Assembly: GCA_018646565.1 (NCBI GenBank)
Contig: JABGUO010000274.1
Location: 1 to 14,865, forward strand
Source of the DNA: Opitutia bacterium
GTDB taxonomy: Bacteria; Verrucomicrobiota; Verrucomicrobiia; Opitutales; Seribacteraceae
Direction: 5' to 3'
Length of the DNA stretch: 14,865 nt
In this document: positions 1,876 to 14,437 of the stretch, piece after piece
How positions within the stretch are numbered: the stretch's first letter is position 1
Layout: every line of letters begins with the position of its first letter
Translations under genes and position numbers: made by a program
The notes under the pieces: generated by a model
The model's input: only the letters and a program-made list of their open reading frames with translations
Told to the model about the DNA's origin: nothing
Database searches by the model: none

Positions 1876-1936
1876 TTACAGAGATAATAGAGCATGAGCT
1901 TGCCCTCACACGCCAGTATCACAAGAATTGAAAAAA

Positions 1937-2317
1937 ATGACCGATCCAAGAGAAGGGCAATCTACCATACAATCGACAAGACCGTGGGGTGATATACATA
2001 TGGTCGTTCGTAACCAGAAGTGCTCGGTTGACCTGACCGAAGTCAAACCCGGTGAACGGGCGAGTCTCCACTCCCATGCAATCAGGCATGAACTTTTTCA
2101 CTTTCTCGATGACGGGGCTATTTTGGAAATTGATGGGAAACTCTTTCATCCCAAAGCTCATGAGGAATTTTTAATCAAACCCGGACAAAAACACCGCTTT
2201 TGGGCTGAGGAGTCCAGCTTTCGCATGCTGGTCATAAGTTTAGGTGAGTGGAAAGCAGAAGACCAAATCCGCCATGAAGACGACTACGGAAGAAAGGGAG
2301 AAACTATCAAATTTTAA
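1937..2317 (+). CDS. Stand-alone cupin like the C-terminal domain of type II phosphomannose isomerase
   Basis: The 126-residue product is a single cupin barrel with the signature of the isomerase domain of ManC/AlgA. It has TRPWGD near the start, VKPGERASLHSHAIRHEL (36-53) with likely metal ligands H45, H47 and E52, then LIKPGQKHRFWA with H86. It ends with the typical EDQIRHEDDYGR. Full ManC proteins are about 460-480 residues with an N-terminal guanylyltransferase domain. That domain is absent, so this is a lone cupin that may isomerise a (phospho)sugar or serve another role. The start is uncertain: ATG 1937 is chosen here, but a TTG at 1928 in the same frame would add three residues, and no strong ribosome site decides. 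Its TAA is followed directly by the pdxA ATG, which points to translational coupling. Confidence 0.85.
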   Translation: MTDPREGQSTIQSTRPWGDIHMVVRNQKCSVDLTEVKPGERASLHSHAIRHELFHFLDDGAILEIDGKLFHPKAHEEFLIKPGQKHRFWAEESSFRMLVISLGEWKAEDQIRHEDDYGRKGETIKF

Positions 2318-3307
2318 ATGTCAAAACCACGCATAGCAATAACCATGGGAGACCCTGCCGGAATAGGCCCTGAGATCTGTCTCGATCTTTTGGCAGACCA
2401 AGAAATTCAGGAACTTTGTACCCCCATTATTTTTGGGGATCTTGCAGTTCTTAAATCATGTGCCGAAAAGACGGGGAAACCTTCCCATTTCCAAGCCATC
2501 AAAAAAGAAAATCTAGATTCAAACGATTCACCAGTAGTCCTTGATTTAGATTTAATGAATTTAGAAAAGTTACAACCAGGCACAATAAGTTTTGAAACGG
2601 GGAGAGCAACATACGGATATATTAAATCCGCAATCGATGCATGCCTTAGTAATCAAGTCGATGCAGTTACTACATGCCCGGCGAATAAGGAAGCACTTCA
2701 AAAAGCAGGCGTCCCCTACCCTGGGCATACAGAGATTTTCGCCGACCGCACCGGAACCGATAAATTTTGTATGGCTTTTATCTCTGATATTATCAGTTGT
2801 AGCTTAGTCTCCGTTCATGTCGGGTATGAAGAAGTTCCTAATCTACTAAGCATCGAACGGATATGCGAAGTAATCGAAATGACTCGAGACACTCACAAAA
2901 AATTGCTTGGACGCGAACCGAGAATCGCGGTCTGCGGTCTCAACCCACACGCCGGCGAAAATGGATTATTCGGAAATTGCGAAGAAGAACGTATCATTTT
3001 GCCTGCCATTGAAAAAATGCGTCAGGATGGTGGCGACCTAATCGGTCCCTTACCACCCGACACCGCCTTCACGCCTTCTCGACGAACCCAAACCGATGCC
3101 TATATCTGCATGTATCATGATCAGGCACTCATCCCCGTAAAGGCACTCGCCTTTGATCAGGCAGTCAATGTTACACTAGGCCTGCCTATCGTCAGAACAT
3201 CAGTGGATCATGGCACTGCCCTTGACATCGCTTGGCAGGGAAAGGCCGATCCTCAGAGCCTCAAGCAAGCTGTTCTGCTTGCAACCAAGCTCAGCCAACA
3301 GAAATGA
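2318..3307 (+). CDS. pdxA: 4-hydroxythreonine-4-phosphate dehydrogenase (PdxA family)
   Basis: This is a full-length PdxA-family protein of 329 residues, the usual size. It opens with the hallmark AITMGDPAGIGPE. TCPANKEALQKAG (119-131) and PYPGHTEIFADRTG follow, then GLNPHAGENGLFG (207-219), YICMYHDQALIP (262-273) and TSVDHGTALDIAW (295-306). H167, H211 and H267 match the three metal-binding histidines of the E. coli enzyme. PdxA oxidises 4-phosphohydroxy-L-threonine with NAD(P)+ in pyridoxal-phosphate synthesis in the cytoplasm. The family also includes PdxA2 enzymes that act on four-carbon sugar-acid phosphates, so a catabolic role is possible in this carbohydrate-rich setting. No other vitamin B6 gene is nearby. 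It abuts the cupin upstream and overlaps the next gene by ATGA, as in an operon. Confidence 0.96.
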   Translation: MSKPRIAITMGDPAGIGPEICLDLLADQEIQELCTPIIFGDLAVLKSCAEKTGKPSHFQAIKKENLDSNDSPVVLDLDLMNLEKLQPGTISFETGRATYGYIKSAIDACLSNQVDAVTTCPANKEALQKAGVPYPGHTEIFADRTGTDKFCMAFISDIISCSLVSVHVGYEEVPNLLSIERICEVIEMTRDTHKKLLGREPRIAVCGLNPHAGENGLFGNCEEERIILPAIEKMRQDGGDLIGPLPPDTAFTPSRRTQTDAYICMYHDQALIPVKALAFDQAVNVTLGLPIVRTSVDHGTALDIAWQGKADPQSLKQAVLLATKLSQQK

Positions 3308-4044: not shown

Positions 4045-5346
4045 CTAGATTTCAAGACCCTGAAACCCGGAGGCGGTGCTCCTGCCAAAAGATTCTATCT
4101 CCACTCCCATTCGTTGAGCCAGAGGGATGAAGAGATTAGATAATGGAGTGTTCTCTTTGTCATCGTGAGCGACGAAGGATCCGTGCTTATATCCACCACC
4201 AGCTACGATAATGGGGAGATTGCGCCAGTCATGCGAAGAGGCGTTACCCAAATTGGATCCAAAAAGAATTGATGTTCCATCAAGCAAAGATCGACCCTCT
4301 TCTTGGTGCAACTTGAGCTTGCCGAGAAAATCAGCAAACAGAGAAAATTCAGCTTTTTCGATAATTTCTAATTCCTCAATCTTGTCTTCATCCTTACCAT
4401 GGTGGGACAGGTTGTGCCAGTCGGTCTTCACTCCCTTAATGTTACTGGGCACCGCATTGAATGCACCCAAGGAAAAGGTCATTACTCGAGAAGAATCGGT
4501 TTGCAAAGCAAGGGCCATTAAATCGTACATCAATTGCTGCTTGGCCAATAAATCAAAGCGATCTTGTACATCATTGGGCTCTGAGTAATTAACCTTTGGC
4601 TTAGGTTTCCCGGACCAGTCTTTGTTTTGTTGGAGTCTTTTTTCTAAGTTTCGAACGGAAGAAAAATATTCTTCCAATTTATCACGATCAACTTGACCGA
4701 GGTTTCCCTGTAACCTTCGAGCATCCCCCCTTATGACATCAAGAATGCTCTGCCCACGGTTTAAGTGGTTCAGCTGTTCTTTGATTTCTTTATCTGTGCC
4801 CTGAACAAAAAGTTTGCGATATACTTTTGATGGCGAAGATTGAGATGGAATAGATACACCATTAGTATTCCATGAAATCGATTGCCCTCCTCCCCCCGTA
4901 CCCAAATTGATTGAAGGAATTCTGGTTTTCGTTCCAATCTTACCAGCGATCAACTGATCCAATGAGATCGCATTCTTAAAACCAGCCAAGCCGGGTCGTT
5001 CGACCGCTGTCAACCAAGTCATTTCCGATGCATGCCCGCTACTTCCCTGTTGATTAGAATGAGAAAGCCCAGAGAAAAGAGTAAAATCCTTTCGCAGATG
5101 TTTTAACTCTTCAAGATAAGGAGTTATTTCATACTCATATCCTGATTTTTCAGGAAATAGGTTGGGGCCATGAAAACCCAATGCCGCATTAATCGCCACA
5201 AAACGATTCGGTACTCGCGGAAGAATCGGCGTTCGGGCAAATACTGGAGTCATTGCCTCAAGCATCGGTAAAGCAAGCGATACGCCTGCACCCTTTAGGA
5301 AAGTTCTACGAGACAACGATTCGGATCGATAAATATAGGCGGTCAT
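4045..5346 (-). CDS. DUF1552 family protein, Tat-exported
   Basis: This is a 433-residue protein of the DUF1552 family. Its N-terminus carries a twin-arginine signal, LSRRTFLKGAGVSLALPMLE (11-30), with a probable cleavage site near PVFA (35-38). The typical family features follow: FVAINAALGFHGPNLFPE, LFSGLSHSNQQGSSGH, the mid-protein SWNTNGVSIPSQSSPSKVYR, and a C-terminal GSNLGNASSHDWRNLPII with GGGYKHG. The Tat signal implies export of a folded, perhaps cofactor-bearing, protein. The biochemical role is not established. The gene lies five bases downstream of the DUF1592-type cytochrome gene. The two families are regularly paired in Planctomycetes and Verrucomicrobia, which suggests a joint periplasmic or surface redox function. 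Its position after sulfatases suggests use in polysaccharide degradation, by inference only. Confidence 0.93.
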   Translation of the reverse strand: MTAYIYRSESLSRRTFLKGAGVSLALPMLEAMTPVFARTPILPRVPNRFVAINAALGFHGPNLFPEKSGYEYEITPYLEELKHLRKDFTLFSGLSHSNQQGSSGHASEMTWLTAVERPGLAGFKNAISLDQLIAGKIGTKTRIPSINLGTGGGGQSISWNTNGVSIPSQSSPSKVYRKLFVQGTDKEIKEQLNHLNRGQSILDVIRGDARRLQGNLGQVDRDKLEEYFSSVRNLEKRLQQNKDWSGKPKPKVNYSEPNDVQDRFDLLAKQQLMYDLMALALQTDSSRVMTFSLGAFNAVPSNIKGVKTDWHNLSHHGKDEDKIEELEIIEKAEFSLFADFLGKLKLHQEEGRSLLDGTSILFGSNLGNASSHDWRNLPIIVAGGGYKHGSFVAHDDKENTPLSNLFIPLAQRMGVEIESFGRSTASGFQGLEI

Positions 5347-5351
5347 AAAAG

Positions 5352-7760
5352 TTATTTACTTTGAAAAATAGTTGAAGCCACCACCGCATGCAAGAGATCA
5401 CCCACGCGATATTTATTGGCTGCACATTTGTTGATAATTCGATCAATTTCATCCTTGTCGGAAAAGCCAAGTTCACGACCAGTTCCAAAGGTAAGCAATT
5501 TTTGAACGAATGCACGGGCCAAGGTTTTTTCATTCCCGGCCAAAGCGTTCTGAAACTCTTTAAAATTGGTGAAATGAGCACCATCAACAAAATGCCCAGA
5601 TGCATCCACCAGTGGTCCCTGCTTATAGCGAACTACCTGGGCTCTGACTTTCTTTTCGACTGAAGGTGCTTGAGGATTCAAAGATCGATAATTCTCCCGG
5701 TATCCTCCAATGGGGTTAAAAGATTCAAGAGCAAAGCCAAGTGGGTCAAATTTTGCATGACATCCCTGACAGCTGATCATACTCCGATGCTTCTCCAAAA
5801 GATCCCGTAATGTCTCGGCTCCGCGAATATCGGGCTCGACTCCGGAAATTAGAGGAGGTGGCGGAGATGGCATTTGTCCAAGAATTCTCTCCATTACCCA
5901 AACCCCGCGAAGCACAGGAGAAGTATTGGTTCCGTTTGCGGTCACTTTAAGAACGCTCGCCTGAGCAAGTAAACCGCCGCGGGGAAGATCAACGGGTAAT
6001 GAGACTCGACGGATCTCATGCCCCGTAACGCCGGGTACGCCGTAGTGCTGAGCCAAACGTTCATTGAGCATCGCAAAGTCGGATTTTACAAAATTAGATA
6101 CGGGCAAGTTTTCTTTGAACAGGTATTGAACAAAGGCTCTAGTTTCTTTCAGCATCGATGTCTTGAGATACAAATCGTATTCGGGAAACAAAACTCGATC
6201 GGGAGAGGTAAAGTCGATATTTCTCAGATCGAGCCAATTGTTTGTAAAATCTTCGATAAATCGCTCAAAACTTTTGGCATGCAAAAGCATTTCAGTTTGC
6301 GGCCGAAGCCACTTTAAATTATTTCCTTTCACTCCATCCATGTCCTGATTGACCAACTCTTTATGCCCAAGACTTCTTGCTAAAAAGAGATGGAGGCGAC
6401 TGGCCAAGGCACCACCTTTAAAATTGAGCAATGGTTCGTTTAAATAAAGAAAACGAGGTGAGGAAAAGAGAGCACAAAAAACTGTTTTCAAAGCAGATTC
6501 CAAACTTTCACCTTTCTTTCGCTCATCCCCAAAAAGATTAAAGTAATCTTCCATTTCCTCATTCGTAACCGATTGCCGAAAAGCAAGAGAACCTACTCGA
6601 AAAAGAAACTTCTGAATGGTCTTATTTTCATCCTCGCAAATTAATTCGAACTTGGGCTTGTACCAATGCTTTTCCCGGTTACTGGGATGATTAGGTTCGA
6701 CCTCGTGCCTATCAATTCCTTCAAATATGTAGTCGTAACCGGTTCCTGGATAACCCTTGCTTAATGGGCCCTCAACTTCAGCCCCGATGAAGGCGAACCC
6801 TTTACCCTTATAAGTATTAGGATTCATATGCTCGAATCCAGGCACACGATAAATTCCCTGAGGATCAAACTTGATCATATAACCATGATCCAACCATACC
6901 TCCAGTTCAACAGTAGTTGATTTTTTGGGCAAAAAGGAAGCAGTTCCTAAATGGAGTTTGGGACTGCCAGGCTCATAACTCTCTGCCTGAATCAGGCAAG
7001 TAACAGCCTTGTCAGTTTGATAACCGTAACCTGTTAAACTAATCTTATAGAGACCTTCACGCTGCACTCGTGATTGGCGCAATAAACCCGTAGGGTATCC
7101 TCCACCATAAAAATGAACAATCGCTCCATTCGTTAATCTTTTCCATGATTTACCGACATGTTGATTGATCTCCCGTTCTTCAAAATTGATCTTCTTGGTG
7201 GTTTGCTTGTAGGGATGGTGAGTCTGTCGAACCGTTTGATCGAAGATCAGACCCGCAGCATGGATGTATTGTTTGAGGTGCTCCATGGACAAACCTAATG
7301 CACTTCCAATATTATTAAATTCATGCGAATGCCCGTCCTCCGGTAATAAGTCAGCAAGTCTTAGCCGAGTCCCAAATAGATCGTTCATGGTATTCTCATA
7401 TTCTCTTCGGTTTAACCGACGAAGAACTGTTCCCTTTACCTTACTATGTGCCTCCGAAAGGTGACCCCCAAGTAATTCCCGCACCTTTATCAACTCAACT
7501 GGACCGGGGCGATCCTTCACCTTTTGAGGTGGCATTTCTCCATTGATCGCTCGTTCATAAATTCTCTCCCAAGTTGCAAACGCTTCAGGGTCCTCCAATT
7601 TCTCGGACAATTTATCCATCGCCAACCCACCCTTCTTTGCTCCGTCACCGTGGCAATCGAAACAATGAAGCTCAAGAAAAGGCATCAACTGACTCTTCCA
7701 CTCAGCCAAAAGGCTGTAATAGGAGAAGGCGAACAGAATGATAAGAAATCGGTTATTCAA
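5352..7760 (-). CDS. Large DUF1587/1592/1588/1585 protein with two CxxCH haem sites
   Basis: The 802-residue protein starts with a signal peptide (LIILFAFSYYSLLAE) and a cytochrome-c-like region with the haem motif CFDCH (33-37) followed by KKGGLAMD. DUF1587 follows around 110-175 (RRLNRREYENTMNDLFG). A beta-rich middle region of about 200 residues may bind carbohydrate. DUF1595/DUF1592-type helices come next (FRVGSLAFRQSVT; ALKTVFCALFSSPRFLYLNE). DUF1588 has GGLLAQASVLKVTANGTNTS and a second CQGCH (about 664-668). It ends with DUF1585 (LVDASGHFVDGAHF; LLTFGTGRELGFSD). The start codon is TTG: an in-frame TGA lies about 25 bases upstream and the next ATG would remove the signal peptide. The two haem sites suggest electron transfer outside the cytoplasm. 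It is probably co-transcribed with the DUF1552 gene. The substrate is unknown. Confidence 0.93.
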   Translation of the reverse strand: MNNRFLIILFAFSYYSLLAEWKSQLMPFLELHCFDCHGDGAKKGGLAMDKLSEKLEDPEAFATWERIYERAINGEMPPQKVKDRPGPVELIKVRELLGGHLSEAHSKVKGTVLRRLNRREYENTMNDLFGTRLRLADLLPEDGHSHEFNNIGSALGLSMEHLKQYIHAAGLIFDQTVRQTHHPYKQTTKKINFEEREINQHVGKSWKRLTNGAIVHFYGGGYPTGLLRQSRVQREGLYKISLTGYGYQTDKAVTCLIQAESYEPGSPKLHLGTASFLPKKSTTVELEVWLDHGYMIKFDPQGIYRVPGFEHMNPNTYKGKGFAFIGAEVEGPLSKGYPGTGYDYIFEGIDRHEVEPNHPSNREKHWYKPKFELICEDENKTIQKFLFRVGSLAFRQSVTNEEMEDYFNLFGDERKKGESLESALKTVFCALFSSPRFLYLNEPLLNFKGGALASRLHLFLARSLGHKELVNQDMDGVKGNNLKWLRPQTEMLLHAKSFERFIEDFTNNWLDLRNIDFTSPDRVLFPEYDLYLKTSMLKETRAFVQYLFKENLPVSNFVKSDFAMLNERLAQHYGVPGVTGHEIRRVSLPVDLPRGGLLAQASVLKVTANGTNTSPVLRGVWVMERILGQMPSPPPPLISGVEPDIRGAETLRDLLEKHRSMISCQGCHAKFDPLGFALESFNPIGGYRENYRSLNPQAPSVEKKVRAQVVRYKQGPLVDASGHFVDGAHFTNFKEFQNALAGNEKTLARAFVQKLLTFGTGRELGFSDKDEIDRIINKCAANKYRVGDLLHAVVASTIFQSK

Positions 7761-7906: not shown

Positions 7907-9376
7907 TTACTTACCCTCTTTCCACCATTTTTTCATCAGGATGACATTACCTTGAATCTCATCAGCTCTTTCCTTTCTGCCTTTGATTGCCTGTCCGCCA
8001 ATGTAGATCTTCATGTCGCTATCGTACATCTTCATCGGTTCGACTTTCTGTCCATGATCACCTGTTTCCTTAATCCACAGATCGAGAGTCTTTCTCATTT
8101 TCTGTAGAGCTTTCAAATGATTGGGGCTATCTGCTAAGTTCTCCAGTTCCCATGGATCATTGCTTAAGTCATAAAGCTCTTCTTTTGTTCTGGCAGGAGA
8201 AAGTAAAAGCTCTTTCTGTAGGTTGGTTAGTTTTCCTTTTTCTCCCCATTCCCGTATCGCCAAGTAAGTATCCTTGTTGTCCTTATATGCACAGGGTTGT
8301 AGATGCGGGCGATTCGGGTATCCGTTTCGAATGTACTTATATCGAGATGTTCGGACCGCACGGATACGGTCGTAAGTCTCATCACAACGGTCTCTGGCAC
8401 TAACTGCAAATTTACGTTTTACTGCATTGGAACCGAATAAACTTTGAGCCTCCATATATTTTGGCACCTCAATACCAGCAAAATAAAGCGAAGTGGCTGC
8501 CACATCAATATGCAACACTGGATCTTTTCTTACACTCCCAGCCTTCACTCTTCCGGGTGCGTGCACAAAGAACGGGATCATCATGCCTTCATCGTAACAA
8601 AACTGTTTTCCCCGGGCGTGACTGACTCCATGATCGGTAATGAAAAAGATCACGGTATTTTCAAACTCACCCTCTTTTTTAAGACGATCTATGATTTGCC
8701 CCACCTGTAAATCCATTAAATTAAAGGTATCCAAATAGGCTGCCCAATCTTCCAACACTACCGGATGCCGTGGGTAGTAGGGGGGAACTTCAACCTTAGA
8801 AGTATCCACATGAGGAATATCTTTTGAAGATCGAGCTTGGGAACGGGCTTTTCCTCCGCTCAGACAAATCTTGGCAAAGAAAGGTTGATCCTTCTTTCGC
8901 CCTGACCATTCGGGTGCATCGAAAACTTTTGTATCCCATTCAAAATTATAATCCGATTTCCCAAACCTTAGCTTATGTTTTGGACTCGCTATTCCAGCAC
9001 CATGTACGCTCCCACCAAGACATGTATAATACCCCGCCTCATTAAAAAACTCGGGAATTAATTTCACATGATCAGGTTTCTGAATTTTCACTTCACCACG
9101 TCCGCTGCGGTGATGATGAGCTCCAATACTTGTCTGAAACATCCCGGTAATTAGGGCGGATCGGGCAGTTGAGCAAACTGGTGCAGTAACCGATGCATTG
9201 GTAAAGCGTACTCCATTCTTAGCCAATCCATCCAATATTGGGGTTTGAACAAGTTTTTCTCCATTAAAACCATAATGCTTCGATTGGTCCTCGACCACAA
9301 TCCAGAGGATGTTGGGACGCATGCTTTTAGGCTCAGCATGCAAAGAGATTAATCCAATGAAAAGAAAACGAAACAT
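7907..9376 (-). CDS. Sulfatase (S1, heparan N-sulfatase-like) with CSTAR active-site motif
   Basis: This 489-residue sulfatase has a short signal peptide (MFRFLFIGLISLHA). The first metal-binding pair is E29-D30 in ILWIVVEDQS. The active-site loop reads VCSTARSALITGMFQTSIG, with the candidate formylglycine residue C68 and R72. The late metal site is FFITDHGVSHARGK. The C-terminus carries ELYDLSNDPWELENLADSP. The TSIGAHHHRS stretch after the active site resembles sulfamidase/heparan-N-sulfatase-like bacterial enzymes. The usual CxPxR motif has Thr instead of Pro at the third position, which may affect formylglycine formation. It lies 20 bases downstream of the HAD gene, consistent with one transcript, and 146 bases upstream of the DUF1592 gene. 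The substrate is not certain: N- or O-sulfated sugars are possible. Confidence 0.93.
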   Translation of the reverse strand: MFRFLFIGLISLHAEPKSMRPNILWIVVEDQSKHYGFNGEKLVQTPILDGLAKNGVRFTNASVTAPVCSTARSALITGMFQTSIGAHHHRSGRGEVKIQKPDHVKLIPEFFNEAGYYTCLGGSVHGAGIASPKHKLRFGKSDYNFEWDTKVFDAPEWSGRKKDQPFFAKICLSGGKARSQARSSKDIPHVDTSKVEVPPYYPRHPVVLEDWAAYLDTFNLMDLQVGQIIDRLKKEGEFENTVIFFITDHGVSHARGKQFCYDEGMMIPFFVHAPGRVKAGSVRKDPVLHIDVAATSLYFAGIEVPKYMEAQSLFGSNAVKRKFAVSARDRCDETYDRIRAVRTSRYKYIRNGYPNRPHLQPCAYKDNKDTYLAIREWGEKGKLTNLQKELLLSPARTKEELYDLSNDPWELENLADSPNHLKALQKMRKTLDLWIKETGDHGQKVEPMKMYDSDMKIYIGGQAIKGRKERADEIQGNVILMKKWWKEGK

Positions 9377-9396: not shown

Positions 9397-10098
9397 TTAA
9401 TTTTCAAACAAGCAAATTAACTTATCTATCGTAGCATTCTCTAAAGAAGGAAGGCACCAATCCGCTTGACTTAATTTCTCCTCATTGTGAATGGCAGAAA
9501 TACCTAACACGCGTAACCCTGCACCTTTCGCCGATGCAACACCGTTTGGAGAATCCTCGATCGCTAAGCAATCTCCTGGTTTTAAACCAATTCCAACCAC
9601 CGCTTTTGCATAAGTCGCAGGATCGGGCTTGGTCTTGGGTACATCATCACTAGTGACGATGGATCCGAACAGGTTTTGTAACCGACCACCAGCAAGAAAA
9701 CTGAGCACTGCGTCAACATCCGACCTTCTTGAACCTGTCGCTAGAGCTATGGGGAATCGTTCGGCTGTGGAAAGAACCAAATCGACTGCACCAGGCATTG
9801 GGTGGGCCTCCTCAGAAACTAATCGCCTGAGAGCATTTGCTTTTCGTTTTGACCATTCCTGAAAAAGGTTTTCGTCATATTTGATTCCTGAAAATTCAGC
9901 CAAACGTCCCATTGCGTATTTTTCATCTGACCCCGTACACTTAGCAAGAAAAGTATCATAACTCTCTTTCATTTCATCCCCCATTGCCTCGCAAATCGCC
10001 TGATAATGGGCAAACTCACTCTCGATAATCACGCCATCCATATCGAAGACGACACCCTTTAAAACTGGGTTACTCACGATTTGCTTTCTTCTTTCCAT
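9397..10098 (-). CDS. HAD-superfamily hydrolase, beta-phosphoglucomutase-like
   Basis: The protein of 233 residues carries all HAD motifs. Motif I is VVFDMDGVIIESE with D19 and D21. Motif II is ALATGSRR with T121. The conserved lysine lies in KTKPDPATY (155-163), and motif IV is AIEDSPNGVASA with E181 and D182. The helical cap between motifs I and II puts it in the beta-phosphoglucomutase/phosphatase subgroup, which acts on small phosphosugars in the cytoplasm. The ATG at 10098 lies inside the upstream sulfatase gene (29-base overlap). A GTG at 10077 would shorten the overlap to 8 bases and still leave motif I intact, and the purine-rich AGAAGAAAG before it could serve as a weak ribosome site. 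Lying between two sulfatase genes, it probably processes a sugar phosphate from the same polysaccharide. The exact substrate cannot be read from sequence. Confidence 0.9.
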   Translation of the reverse strand: MERRKQIVSNPVLKGVVFDMDGVIIESEFAHYQAICEAMGDEMKESYDTFLAKCTGSDEKYAMGRLAEFSGIKYDENLFQEWSKRKANALRRLVSEEAHPMPGAVDLVLSTAERFPIALATGSRRSDVDAVLSFLAGGRLQNLFGSIVTSDDVPKTKPDPATYAKAVVGIGLKPGDCLAIEDSPNGVASAKGAGLRVLGISAIHNEEKLSQADWCLPSLENATIDKLICLFEN

Positions 10099-11473
10099 GC
10101 TTGGGTCGATGGATCAGACCTAAAAAAGTAGGCTCGATCAATTGTGCGTTCCATGATTTGCGCAACTTTTGCAACTCCTCGATCCGTTCTGGTCGTTGTT
10201 CAGCCAAATCAATGGTTTCACCAATATCGACCTTTAAATTATACAACTGGGGGTTTGCTCCCTTCCAGGTAATAACCATTTTATCCATCCCTTCGCGCAC
10301 CGCGAATCGATTACGATCGAACTGTCGAAGATAAATTGCTCGATGAGGATTACCCTTGTCATCACCTTTAAGGAAAGGAATCAGGTTCACTCCGTCCAAT
10401 GGTTTATCCTCGGATACTCTTGCCCCCGATAAGGCCACGATAGTTCCTCCTAGATCCAATGATGAGACAGGTGCTTCATAGGTGGTTCCCGCAGGTAGTT
10501 CCCCTTTCCATTGGATGGCAAAAGGTACACGATAACCACCCTCCCATGCATCTCCTTTTTTACCACGAAGTGGAGTGTTCTGAGATGCGTTCTTAGTCGT
10601 CGGGCCTCCGTTGTCAGAAAGAAAGGCAACAATAGTACTTTCCTCCAAACCACACTTACGTACTTCAGCTAACACCCTCCCCACTCCATCATCAACCGCA
10701 CTTACCATAGCCGCATAGGTCTTTCTTTTCTTGTCCTTGATTTCAGGAAAACGACTGAGATACTTTTCTGTCGCCTCCAGAGGCGTGTGTGGGGCGTTAT
10801 AAGAAAGAAATAAAAAGAAGGATAAGCCGCGGTTTCTTTTAACAAAAGAGACTGCTTCATCAGAAAAATCATCGGTTATATATTTTCTAGGTGGAACAGG
10901 TTCATAATTCTTCAGCAACCATGTTCTGTAACTTTCCGACTCACCTTTGGCGTCCTGACTTCTTTTGATAGTAAGCTTTTCTGGAAAATAAGTGTGACCA
11001 CCACCAAGATGTCCGTAGAACTCATCGAATCCTCGTTTCATTGGATGGCTTGCCGGAATATGAGCCCCCAAATGCCATTTTCCGATAATTCCAGAATGAT
11101 ATCCAGCAGGTTTAAGAAGTTCCGCAATTGTCTTTTCATCGCGGGTCAACCCCATGTTTGGATCATTAGGCTGATACTGAGGATTTCTCTCAAATCCAAA
11201 TCTTTGGGGATATCGTGCGGTCATGAAACCCGCCCTCGAGGGACCGCACACAGCATAGGCGACATATCCACTGGTACAGCGAATTCCGTTCTTTGCAATC
11301 GAATCAATATTGGGAGTGGGAATATCTTTACATCCGTTAAAACCCACATCAGCATAACCTAAGTCATCACACATAATTACGATCAGATTGGGCTTTTTCA
11401 CAACAGATGCTACCAAAAAAGGGGCAATCAAATTCAATGTAAAAATTAAAAGGGGTAAAAAGAACAGTTTCAT
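10070..11473 (-). CDS. Sulfatase (S1, arylsulfatase/GALNS-like) with canonical CGPSR
   Basis: This 467-residue exported sulfatase has a long hydrophobic signal peptide (LFFLPLLIFTLNLIAPFLVA). The metal-binding pair is D36-D37 in IVIMCDDLGYADVG. The active-site motif is canonical, C76-G-P-S-R80 followed by AGFMTARYPQRFG. IIGKWHLG (129-136) supplies the catalytic Lys and His, and FLSDNGGPTTKNAS the second metal site. It ends with a basic tail (HRPKHGKKKANRE). Cys-to-formylglycine conversion would be expected. The upstream ATG has no Shine-Dalgarno sequence. It is the first gene of the minus-strand run and is divergent from the sulfatase-GH30 fusion across 138 bases, so both could share control elements. 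The subfamily resembles arylsulfatase-A/GALNS-type enzymes, but I cannot name the substrate. Confidence 0.95.
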   Translation of the reverse strand: MKLFFLPLLIFTLNLIAPFLVASVVKKPNLIVIMCDDLGYADVGFNGCKDIPTPNIDSIAKNGIRCTSGYVAYAVCGPSRAGFMTARYPQRFGFERNPQYQPNDPNMGLTRDEKTIAELLKPAGYHSGIIGKWHLGAHIPASHPMKRGFDEFYGHLGGGHTYFPEKLTIKRSQDAKGESESYRTWLLKNYEPVPPRKYITDDFSDEAVSFVKRNRGLSFFLFLSYNAPHTPLEATEKYLSRFPEIKDKKRKTYAAMVSAVDDGVGRVLAEVRKCGLEESTIVAFLSDNGGPTTKNASQNTPLRGKKGDAWEGGYRVPFAIQWKGELPAGTTYEAPVSSLDLGGTIVALSGARVSEDKPLDGVNLIPFLKGDDKGNPHRAIYLRQFDRNRFAVREGMDKMVITWKGANPQLYNLKVDIGETIDLAEQRPERIEELQKLRKSWNAQLIEPTFLGLIHRPKHGKKKANRE

Positions 11474-11611: not shown

Positions 11612-11615
11612 ATGA
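11547..11615 (+). CDS. Candidate 22-codon upstream ORF overlapping the fusion gene start
   Basis: The ATG lies three bases after the stop codon of the 8-codon ORF. The frame runs for 22 codons (beginning MAYLLAMRLKH) and its TGA overlaps the ATG of the sulfatase-GH30 gene as ATGA. Such an overlap is typical of translational coupling. No known peptide is recognised, and there is no separate ribosome site, so it would depend on reinitiation after the preceding mini-ORF. Confidence 0.22.
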   Translation: MAYLLAMRLKHTGSSLLISNLP

Positions 11616-14437
11616 CTACTTATTTTTATTATTTGTCGATTTGTCTAATCACCCTCTTCCCTGCATTTTCAAATATTAAGCCAAATGTTCTTTTTATTGC
11701 AATCGACGATCTTAGACCGGAACTAAGTTCTTATGGTTCCAAAGTAAAGACACCCCACATTGATCAACTTGCTTCCACTGGTATGCTTTTCGAAAGGGCT
11801 TATTGCCAGCAAGCCGTTTGCGGGGCTTCACGCCTTTCCATTATGGGAGGTCTTTACCCTACCCTAACTGGAGAGCAAACCTTTCATGTGGATGGTTGGA
11901 GAAAAAGGCACCCCGATCTCAAGACCCTCAATCAGCATTTTACCGAGAAGGGTTTCAACACTATAGGGTTGGGTAAGATTTACCACGGGAACAATGGTCC
12001 CGGTGTAGATCAGAAAAACTGGACTCAATGGGTCAAAATGAAAGGGGTTTCTCACTACGCCAAAAAAGAAAATATCGATATTTTAAATAAAGCTCTGACC
12101 GAAATCCAACCGGGCGTTGAACATGATCCGCTCAAAGGTCCTCTAACGGAGAGTGCGAATGTGCACGACGACACTTACACCGATGGAAGGACAACCGCAA
12201 AAACTATCGAACTCCTTAAAAGCTTGGGAGAGAATAGAGAAAAACCTTTTTTCCTAGCAGTTGGTCTGACCAAACCCCACCTTCCATTCGTAGCCCCAAA
12301 GAAATATTGGGACATGTACAATAGAGCAGACTTTAACATGCCATCGAACAAAGGAACCCCCCCTGGATATCCAAGCTATGCAGCCAATCAGTTTGCTTAT
12401 GAAATGCACAAGTACAGTGATTTCAATGGTAAAAGCCCCAAGGATTTGTCTGATAAAACAAACAAACGCTTGCTTCATGGATACGCGGCATGCACAAGTT
12501 ATGCAGATGCATGTGTGGGGCGAATTCTCAATGCATTAGAGAAAAACAATCTCGCAGAAAATACCATTATTGTCCTGTGGGGAGATCATGGATGGAAACT
12601 TGGAGATCATTCGAGTTGGTGCAAGCATACCAACTTTGAATGCGATACCCGAGTTCCTTTGATTGTACGGGATCCTCGTTTGGAGGGTGGGCAAAAAACC
12701 AACAGACTAGTAGAATTAATCGACCTGTACCCGACTCTATGTGATCTGACTGGCTTACCTATTCCTGATCACTGCCAAGGTCGAAGTTTCCGCAAACTAC
12801 TCTCCGATCCTGAAGCGGGTCATCGCTTGGACGCCTACAGTTCCTACCCGACTTACAAAAATATTGGCCACAGTATTCGTTTTAAAAACTTTCGTTATAC
12901 GGAATGGCATGACAAGGATAAAAATACGGTCGCACAAGTGCTGACTAATCTTGAGGCAGACCCAGGAGAAGTCACCAATTGTATGGACGATCCAAATTGT
13001 GCCGATGATTTATCCTATGCTCAAGAAAGACTCAATCTTCGCGCCAGTCAGGCAATCCAACCCAACCCACCGAGCGAATCAGCCCCACCCCAGAAGCAAT
13101 TATTAAATATCGATCCCTCTCCTGAAAACCTTAGGCAGTCGATTGATGGCTTTGGCGGTTCTCTTGCTTTTTGGGCAATTCAAGCCGATGACGAAGCCTT
13201 GGGGTTTGCATTTAAGGAATTAAAAACCACTATTTTGCGAGCCCAGGGTGAAGTATCAAAAAAAGGAATCGTTGATCACAACCGTGAGATTTTGCAACGG
13301 GCTATGAAATTAAATCCTGAACTCGAAGTCCTGCTCACTTTCTGGCAACCCCGTTCCTCCACGCTTCTCAAAACTGATGATTGGCTCGATGAAATCGCCA
13401 CAGTAAAAGACAAGCAATACTTCCTAAAGTCAGAAATGGAGGATGCATGGGCGACAGAAATTGTGAACCGGGTTCAGCAATATTTGGATTGGGGTATCAA
13501 TGTAACCAATCTTGGGGTTCAGAATGAAACTAATTATTCTCACCTTGGCACCCAGACCTGTATTTGGGATCCATTAGTACTTAAGTCATTTATCGAAAAT
13601 AAACTTAAACCGAAACTGGTAAAAGCTGGACTTAAAGTTTTAATCACCGCACCTGACCTTGCTTATGTCGGATACAAGGGAACCGAAGTGCGGCGCTTTC
13701 TACCCACTATCCAAAGCAAAGCCGTCGATCTGGTTGCCTACCACATGTATGATAGCTTTAAAGATGGTACTGATGGCAGTCTTGAAGTGCTCAGGGAAAA
13801 CAGTAAACAAATCGGACAGATTCGAAATGAAAATTTCCCCCTTAAGAAATTTTGGATGACTGAAACGACAGGGGCTCAATGGAATAATGACGAATGGCAT
13901 ACTTATGGATGGACTCCCGAAGCTTCTGAATTCGATAAGGCACTATTAGCTGCACGCTATATACACATGACTTTTGCCGAGGCTCAAGCAAACGTATTTT
14001 TGTGGTGGGGCTTGGTTTATTCTCTCGCTCCAGACCGAGTTAACGATCAAATGACTCGCCAAAAGCATCGTGATGAAGGCCTCGTTTTAGTTGAGGAAAA
14101 GGGAGGGGCGAACGGAAAACAAAAATTTCTCGAAAAGACCAAAAAGTTTTATTTCTTTAAACAGTATGCCAATTATATTTGGAAAGGTTCCCGAAGGATT
14201 GAACTTGAATCCCCCGCCCCCTTGGAGATAACCGCTTTTCAAACTTATGATAAAAGTAGAATTGTGGTGGTCGCAATCAACCCTTCTAACTCCAAACAAA
14301 TTCTAGAAATCAAAATTCCGGATGGAATGATTGAGAGAAGAGCCTTTCAGACTGACCAAAAATTAAATTGTGAACTAGTACAACCGTCCCAAGCACTTCC
14401 CCCGCAATCAGCACGCACTTACATTTATACTCGGTAA
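11612..14437 (+). CDS. Bifunctional fusion: iduronate-2-sulfatase-like sulfatase + GH30-type glycoside hydrolase
   Basis: One uninterrupted frame encodes 941 residues with a signal peptide (about 1-20). Residues 22-480 form a sulfatase of the iduronate-2-sulfatase type. It has NVLFIAIDDLRPELSSYG with D32 and D33, the active-site motif C70-G-A-S-R74, the marker VGLTKPHLPFVAPKKYW, and WGDHGWKLGDHSSWCKHTNF with D325-H326. A Pro/Gln-rich linker follows (483-496). Residues 500-941 resemble a GH30 enzyme of clan GH-A: the hallmark IDGFGGS (511-517), the likely acid/base E639 in GVQNETNY, and the likely nucleophile E751 in WMTETTG. A C-terminal beta domain ends the protein (FFKQYANYIWKGSRRIE; ITAFQTYDKSRIVVVAINPS). 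It should remove sulfate and cleave a glycosidic bond on one exported chain. The sulfatase motif has Ala in place of Pro, a variant accepted by some maturation systems. The exact substrates are unknown. Confidence 0.9.
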   Translation: MTTYFYYLSICLITLFPAFSNIKPNVLFIAIDDLRPELSSYGSKVKTPHIDQLASTGMLFERAYCQQAVCGASRLSIMGGLYPTLTGEQTFHVDGWRKRHPDLKTLNQHFTEKGFNTIGLGKIYHGNNGPGVDQKNWTQWVKMKGVSHYAKKENIDILNKALTEIQPGVEHDPLKGPLTESANVHDDTYTDGRTTAKTIELLKSLGENREKPFFLAVGLTKPHLPFVAPKKYWDMYNRADFNMPSNKGTPPGYPSYAANQFAYEMHKYSDFNGKSPKDLSDKTNKRLLHGYAACTSYADACVGRILNALEKNNLAENTIIVLWGDHGWKLGDHSSWCKHTNFECDTRVPLIVRDPRLEGGQKTNRLVELIDLYPTLCDLTGLPIPDHCQGRSFRKLLSDPEAGHRLDAYSSYPTYKNIGHSIRFKNFRYTEWHDKDKNTVAQVLTNLEADPGEVTNCMDDPNCADDLSYAQERLNLRASQAIQPNPPSESAPPQKQLLNIDPSPENLRQSIDGFGGSLAFWAIQADDEALGFAFKELKTTILRAQGEVSKKGIVDHNREILQRAMKLNPELEVLLTFWQPRSSTLLKTDDWLDEIATVKDKQYFLKSEMEDAWATEIVNRVQQYLDWGINVTNLGVQNETNYSHLGTQTCIWDPLVLKSFIENKLKPKLVKAGLKVLITAPDLAYVGYKGTEVRRFLPTIQSKAVDLVAYHMYDSFKDGTDGSLEVLRENSKQIGQIRNENFPLKKFWMTETTGAQWNNDEWHTYGWTPEASEFDKALLAARYIHMTFAEAQANVFLWWGLVYSLAPDRVNDQMTRQKHRDEGLVLVEEKGGANGKQKFLEKTKKFYFFKQYANYIWKGSRRIELESPAPLEITAFQTYDKSRIVVVAINPSNSKQILEIKIPDGMIERRAFQTDQKLNCELVQPSQALPPQSARTYIYTR

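Follow-up and report, generated by a model that had tools for sequence, protein, structure and literature searches.

The DNA considered here is a window of 14,865 nucleotides (contig JABGUO010000274.1, assembly GCA_018646565.1) from an Opitutia bacterium of the Verrucomicrobiota, whose fragmented metagenome-assembled genome (MAG) comprises 522 contigs and is 78% complete. On the plus strand, at positions 11612 to 14437 including the stop codon, lies a gene for a 941-residue protein in which a type I (S1) sulfatase is genuinely fused to a glycoside hydrolase family 30 (GH30) domain, an arrangement shared by homologs of the same architecture. The protein begins with a probable signal peptide (residues 1-20, 11612..11671), modeled as a hydrophobic N-terminal helix at residues 2-18, and this hydrophobic N-terminus suggests export. 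The S1_7-like sulfatase domain follows (residues 22-482, 11675..13057) and includes a formylglycine motif, C-G-A-S-R, with Ala at the canonical Pro position (residues 70-74, 11819..11833). A Pro/Gln-rich linker free of frameshifts and stops (residues ~483-494, 13058..13093) leads into the GH30 domain, a TIM barrel with a beta domain (residues 495-941, 13094..14434). Within it, the predicted acid/base E639 (13526..13528) comes after barrel strand 631-635, and the predicted nucleophile E751 (13862..13864) stands at the end of strand 746-751. The structural evidence is an AlphaFold model; an earlier one, built from 14 sequences with a predicted local distance difference test (pLDDT) score of 72, was set aside in its favor.

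The sulfatase half has an alkaline-phosphatase-like fold and matches the Pfam Sulfatase family. By both sequence and fold the nearest solved relative of residues 22-482 is 6HHM (~36% identity, E 1.4e-82), which its PDB title places in S1_7. Iduronate-2-sulfatase (IDS, 5fql) is the second-best solved relative (E 1.3e-58), in agreement with the IDS-like type proposed in the first-pass annotation. The S1 family is recognized by the motif (C/S)-x-(P/A)-x-R together with conserved metal and catalytic residues, a pattern to which D32, D33, K122, H125, H223, D325, H326, and K338 of the window protein conform. The same catalytic residues align in 6HHM, but its motif reads C-A-P-S-R, with Pro. The domain would be expected to hydrolyze sulfate esters. 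The closest sulfatases, taken as the best 120 of 7,996 with E <= 1e-20 in a length-limited search, carry only sulfatase-type domains in 107 cases, while four have PF06439, two GH3, and seven GH10 as partner. These seven S1-GH10 proteins are 61-66% identical to the window's sulfatase, and in P0094, where the order was checked, the sulfatase precedes GH10. No S1-GH10 fusion was found at E 1e-150 in 288 genomes of the phylum, with at most three candidates per genome scored; the sole match at that level was the window's own genome, through the sulfatase part only. In 19 genomes holding GH30 loci, none of the listed P0094 matches extends past residue 534, which leaves its GH10 module (from residue 502) uncovered.

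Pfam gave a thin signal for the C-terminal half, detecting its C-terminal domain alone, and profile search and fold comparison were therefore performed. Both identify the half as GH30, as first annotated, and speak against any other family; by either method the best matches are GH30 xylanases. The half forms a (beta/alpha)8 barrel with a fused beta domain, and E639 aligns to the NEP motif of GH30 xylanases. In clan GH-A, strands 4 and 7 each have a catalytic Glu at their end, and in the model E639 and E751 stand where this rule expects them; retaining GH30 chemistry is likely. Subfamily 8, whose members have an Arg-containing pocket for 4-O-methyl-glucuronic acid, is the nearest fold. The solved GH30_8 glucuronoxylanases XynC (3kl3) and CtXyn30A (4uqa) and the GH30_10 enzyme AcXbh30A (7n6h) share ~20-23% identity with the window's GH30 but, unlike it, have no joined sulfatase.

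The fusion is conserved well beyond the window. With residues 490-941 as query, a protein search that scored 7,998 candidates of 0.55-1.75 times the query length yielded 29 matches at E <= 1e-3. One protein of 941 residues (P0003), which represents 90 sequences, is 98% identical to that of the window. When genome contigs were scanned with the GH30 half, 41 loci were found, in records labeled Verrucomicrobia, Opitutia, Akkermansiaceae, and similar, or Planctomycetes; some of the labels point to ocean surveys and two (L043 and L044) to groundwater. Within the window's genus, as the search tool delimits it, 11 of 25 genomes match at E <= 1e-80, the window's own included, while in the rest of the order none of 13 does so; relaxing the threshold to E <= 1e-3, and so admitting weak and partial matches, gives 19 of the 38 genomes of genus and order. 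Residues were compared in 56 open reading frames (ORFs; 41 loci and 15 proteins), of which 42 span both halves. In all 42 the motif C70-G-A-S-R74 and K122, H125, H223, D325, H326, K338, and H339 are invariant, as are N638, E639, H711, and E751 of the GH30 half. D32 and D33 are kept in 41, the remaining row being cut there, and K221 in 41. The linker stretch (residues 478-507) measures 29 residues in 20 of 43 rows, ranges from 27 to 65, and is variable in sequence. These relatives bear out what had been read from the letters of the window, namely a one-frame fusion and two intact active sites. The coupling had also been suggested to be obligate, which is not supported, because each half occurs separately and the same sulfatase clade has GH10 partners. 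GH30 alone is seen, for example, in P0069 and P0070 (contigs above 340 kb), L043, and L044, and the sulfatase alone in P0088 on a 103-kb contig; stand-alone sulfatase orthologs are present in L098 and L099.

Most of these relatives are parts of a much longer chain. The 41 loci were surveyed by blastp with the modules of locus L011 and the GH43 of L028. Eighteen hold ORFs complete at both ends that encode a GH26-like module, GH3, sulfatase, and GH30 in 2,042-2,304 residues, with the sulfatase-GH30 pair as the C-terminal half, and two more four-domain loci are cut, L042 at the 3' end and L047 at both. Six loci begin within GH3 and two slightly before the sulfatase, each at a contig end; L048 retains the end of GH3 with sulfatase and GH30 in an apparently broken frame, and L034 has a broken frame as well. 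Four loci are GH30 only (L018, L037, which is short at its start, L043, and L044), and six show GH30 alone because the contig stops there. L009, with 941 residues, is the sole short form, that is, the two-domain architecture of the window, among the 41. Where both domains are present and the start can be judged (n = 20), 19 loci are thus four-domain and one is short; additional short forms come from the protein search. Pfam confirmed GH3, Sulfatase, and GH30C in L011, L016, and L028, while the N-terminal module lies near the detection limit (GH26 in L016, 20.1 bits against a cut-off of 20.2). The only PDB matches of this module from L011 at E <= 1 are the beta-1,3-xylanase 2ddx (3.9e-33) and two entries of AlXyn26A, and among the PDB relatives of GH3 the xylosidases 7zb3 and 8c7f rank second and third.

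The genes around the long chain are also recurrent. Eighteen four-domain loci have at least 2 kb of upstream sequence (L011-L016, L019-L021, L024-L026, L028, L030, L035, L039, L042, and L046), and in 16 of them a same-strand GH43+GH43_C2 gene lies upstream. In L028 (2627-9541) the GH43 is fused in frame, giving a five-module chain, GH43-GH26-GH3-sulfatase-GH30, of 2,304 residues. The GH43 of L011 matches the xylan beta-1,4-xylosidase 1yrz at E 4e-177, and an MFS_2 or Sugar_tr gene stands between GH43 and chain in 13 of the 18. Neighboring genes were grouped into clusters by blastp, and ten proteins, each from a different cluster, were scanned. Twenty of the 41 loci also have a further sulfatase cluster, whose representative has SGSH and S1_8A as its nearest PDB relatives. 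In P0024 and P0114, which are of Rubripirellula type, the sulfatase module is separated from GH3 by a tandem array of the pentapeptide HSGVP. The four-enzyme gene of L011 is immediately followed by a plus-strand ORF of 3,283 residues that runs from position 11369 to the end of the locus. Genomes with four-enzyme proteins also hold other giant chains of 1,717-2,168 residues (L100:4428-10934, L101:5531-10684, and L102:7448-13876), composed of a sulfatase, a BNR sialidase-like module, and SASA (sialate O-acetylesterase), with a second sulfatase in L100 and L102; they look like an equivalent of the xylan chain for sialoglycans.

The phylogeny bears on how the short form arose. In a tree of the 42 S1-GH30 rows, the window falls in a clade of eight short-form rows (Shimodaira-Hasegawa-like approximate likelihood ratio test, SH-aLRT, 99) whose sister is a long pair, L011 and L010, the latter cut at a contig end. 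The short forms P0016, P0019, P0020, and P0018 are placed elsewhere, and the minimum number of architecture changes is three, counted without P0023 and without P0014, whose N-terminus is missing. P0023 is not accepted as a short form, as it lies at zero distance from L025, whose frame extends over 2,121 residues. A single short-form clade was rejected by the approximately unbiased (AU) test (p ~5e-63; quick tree, 42 rows), for a group that had been named after an earlier tree of GH30 alone was viewed. This earlier tree, rooted with distant GH30 proteins, puts four-domain forms at the first branches of the fusion clade, with the short forms nested inside; several inner branches are weak, and the rooting is unsure because, as the program warns, long branches meet at the outgroup. 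The simplest reading is that the short form arose more than once when GH26-GH3 was lost and a signal peptide acquired. That the change was a loss rather than a gain is inferred from the rooting of the tree.

On the window contig further sulfatases accompany the fusion gene, and GH3 and GH43 were not found among the ten proteins scanned. The nearest of these sulfatases, with motif CGPSR, is encoded divergently (10070..11473, minus strand) and is conserved beside the short form: in both the window and L009 a divergent sulfatase together with HAD and sulfatase genes make up the setting, and the divergent sulfatase is 80% identical to the same-position copy of L009. The HAD-family gene (9397-10098, minus strand) overlaps the divergent sulfatase gene by 29 bases, and HAD genes of its cluster lie near the short form in L009 and near the GH30-only ORF of L037. 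Another sulfatase (7907-9376, minus strand) has the motif CSTAR, with Thr instead of Pro or Ala. Farther out, a DUF1552 (HXXSHH) protein with a Tat-like start (4045-5346, minus strand) is encoded beside an 802-residue PSCyt1/PSD2-5/PSCyt3 protein (5352-7760, minus strand), and genes of both clusters also lie downstream of the long form in L021. At 1928-3307 on the plus strand, a cupin gene is immediately followed by an ORF whose start resembles that of a PdxA-type 4-hydroxythreonine-4-phosphate dehydrogenase.

Taken as a whole, the protein is probably a secreted enzyme with two active sites, a xylan desulfatase/xylanase acting on sulfated xylan, probably of algal origin. Several lines from sequence and context point to xylan as the substrate. 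The nearest solved sulfatase, 6HHM, is listed as P18_S1_7, a 2-sulfo-D-xylose sulfatase of ulvan (PMC9096561). According to PMC8360166, S1_7 and S1_8 include xylose sulfatases, S1_7 being exo- and S1_8 endo-acting. GH30, GH26, GH3, and GH43 each have xylan-active nearest or near relatives, and the S1-GH10 fusions among the closest sulfatases fit as well. GH26, GH3, GH43, and MFS are the genes of a proven beta-1,3-xylan locus in Vibrio sp. EA2 (PMC12125979), and North Sea Bacteroidetes polysaccharide utilization loci (PULs) with a sulfatase-GH10 protein, GH3, GH30, GH43, and sulfatases have been assigned to sulfated xylans (PMC6794258). The window's genome also encodes a xylose isomerase beside a regulator that combines a sugar-binding domain (Peripla_BP_3) with an AraC-type HTH (L103, contig C433); a GntR/FCD regulator is also present there, as is a GH43-family stretch with a TGA interrupting its frame.

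In the proposed mechanism, Cys70 would be converted to formylglycine, after which the sulfatase domain would remove a sulfate, most likely at O-2, from beta-D-xylose residues. The GH30 domain, retaining through E639 and E751, would then cleave the xylan backbone at the desulfated xylose. The molecule would in this way take off a sulfate that otherwise blocks its xylanase, and sharing one chain may bring a gain. Coupling of desulfation to glycosidic cleavage, suggested earlier, is supported as the likely purpose of the fusion. In most relatives with a judgeable start, GH26, related to beta-1,3-xylanases, and GH3 precede on the same chain, and the upstream GH43 xylosidase and sugar transporter would complete final hydrolysis and import. 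The window organism would carry a shortened derivative without GH26-GH3.

A number of observations weigh against this interpretation. The window sulfatase is only ~36% identical to 6HHM, S1_7 also holds cgsB, a carrageenan 4-sulfo-galactose sulfatase (PMC9096561), and PMC9096561 and PMC8360166 differ as to the endo or exo action of the S1_7 xylose sulfatase. PDB relatives of the GH3 module include beta-glucosidases, and the four-domain locus L035 has no GH43 neighbor. Neither GH26-GH3 nor a close GH43 relative was found in two short-form genomes, that of the window (78% complete) and G007 (87%), while the same queries gave matches in six of 23 genomes. GH10 occurs in three of the 23 and was found neither in the window's genome nor in G007. 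Xylose isomerase occurs in ten of 23 genomes searched, the window's own included, and among 16 genomes of the same genus in five of eight carriers of the chain or its parts against two of eight others; it is not clearly enriched as a marker of carriers. The motif, finally, reads CGASR and not CxPxR in all 42 fusions, and formylglycine maturation is for that reason not assured.

This last point belongs to an alternative in which the sulfatase half is unmatured or inactive and serves the GH30 as a binding module. CGASR is likewise present in 119 of the best 120 of 7,996 sulfatase relatives, no motif being found in the other, and the anaerobic maturase model TIGR03942 has no match in the 78%-complete genome of the window. 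The other metal and catalytic residues are nonetheless invariant in 42 of 42 fusions (D32/D33 in 41, with one row cut), and the genome holds three stretches of the formylglycine-generating enzyme (FGE) family. Ala at the motif position is accepted in some known sulfatase motifs. An inactive half is improbable, and maturation is plausible. The idea that the fusion itself is an assembly artefact, or hides a frameshift near 13060, has next to nothing left to it: the MAG is indeed fragmented, but the identical in-frame junction recurs in 42 rows, drawn from two phyla and from both genomes and metagenomes, which refutes it. A few of these rows pair up as near-identical, but for many the identity is only 50-70%. 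The check for a missed stop or frameshift thus came out clean.

Other alternatives concern the substrate. The sulfatase could be an iduronate/uronate-2-sulfatase, with the fusion acting on a uronic-acid-rich glycan such as a glycosaminoglycan-like polymer or glucuronan. IDS is the second-best solved relative, but the reported xylose-2-sulfate enzyme 6HHM is closer by many orders of magnitude in E-value, and the partner domains and neighbors are of xylan type, which makes a uronate target very improbable. A mixed sulfated heteropolysaccharide containing xylose (ulvan, sulfated xylomannan, or xylogalactan) is a weightier candidate, though still an unlikely one; here the sulfatase would act on xylose-2-sulfate (Xyl2S) and the GH30 on a short xylose or uronate stretch. 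The PDB title of 6HHM calls it ulvan-specific, Xyl2S is a known component of ulvan (PMC8511951), Verrucomicrobiota hold S1_7 in PULs for other sulfated polymers (PMC8857213), and the GH26 family also includes mannanases (PMC6556568). Yet of the many neighbor proteins, the ten that were annotated, one per cluster, include no lyase, rhamnosidase, or mannosidase, the GH26 module matches beta-1,3-xylanases and not mannanases, and the GH30 half matches xylanases. Xylan proper is the preferred substrate.

Several characterized systems resemble parts of this one. P18_S1_7 (FA22070) of Formosa agariphila is like the window's sulfatase in its catalytic residues and acts in the ulvan pathway as a xylose-2-sulfate sulfatase, but it shows no fusion in its record, has Pro in its motif, and was described from ulvan rather than xylan. 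P36_S1_25-GH78 of the same organism (6HR5) joins a sulfatase to a glycoside hydrolase, as in the window; its rhamnosidase (GH78) acts on the sugar that its sulfatase desulfates, and according to PMC8511951 it was the first multimodular enzyme reported for ulvan breakdown. It differs in sulfatase subfamily, in hydrolase, in sugar (rhamnose-3-sulfate), and in having two modules only. The sulfatase-GH10 proteins of marine Bacteroidetes PULs, as described in PMC6794258, combine a sulfatase with a xylanase-type module too, but with GH10 in place of GH30 and no GH26 or GH3 on the chain. Those PULs also contain GH3, GH30, GH43, and further sulfatases, and, set beside this pattern, the present relatives show GH43 in 17 of 18 loci, a further sulfatase cluster in 20 of 41, and GH3 on the chain, with GH26/GH30 in place of GH10; the window's own contig has further sulfatases but no GH3 or GH43 among the ten proteins scanned. 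The Vibrio sp. EA2 locus shares GH26 beta-1,3-xylanases, GH3 and GH43 xylosidases, and an MFS transporter with the relatives; it differs in that these are separate proteins, in an extra ABC transporter, and in that the main text names no sulfatase or GH30 (PMC12125979).

Sulfatase-glycoside hydrolase fusions are therefore already known (S1_25-GH78, PMC8511951; sulfatase-GH10, PMC6794258), and the GH30 pairing and the four-enzyme chain apparently represent a new version of them, since neither the pairing nor the GH26-GH3-sulfatase-GH30 chain is named in any title or abstract start found by a literature search, outside of which lie subscription papers and preprints. 'Sulfated xylan' has been invoked in marine PUL papers (PMC6794258), and in the accessible text of PMC6419167 it occurs only within the reference list. 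The phrase 'xylan sulfatase' was absent among the matches listed in a literature search made for it. A bolder reading, advanced tentatively and with somewhat less than even confidence, is that the fusions form the first xylan-sulfatase clade, desulfating the xylose of xylan at O-2. Their full form would then amount to a sulfated-xylan utilization locus strung together as a single secreted polypeptide, on which endo-beta-1,3-xylanase, xylosidase, desulfatase, and GH30 xylanase work in relay, and the streamlined short form of the window would have arisen from it several times as the N-terminal half was lost.

Carrying sulfatase and xylanase sites on one polypeptide, the protein would offer a direct test of whether xylan sulfatase activity exists, and could show which sulfate is removed and whether desulfation gates backbone cleavage. 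The four-enzyme chain is also a domain relay that could be engineered for use on algal xylan. Relatives with this chain suggest that in Verrucomicrobiota and Planctomycetota a large part of a degradation pathway can be carried on a single polypeptide; if true, this would help explain how such bacteria compete for complex algal polysaccharides.

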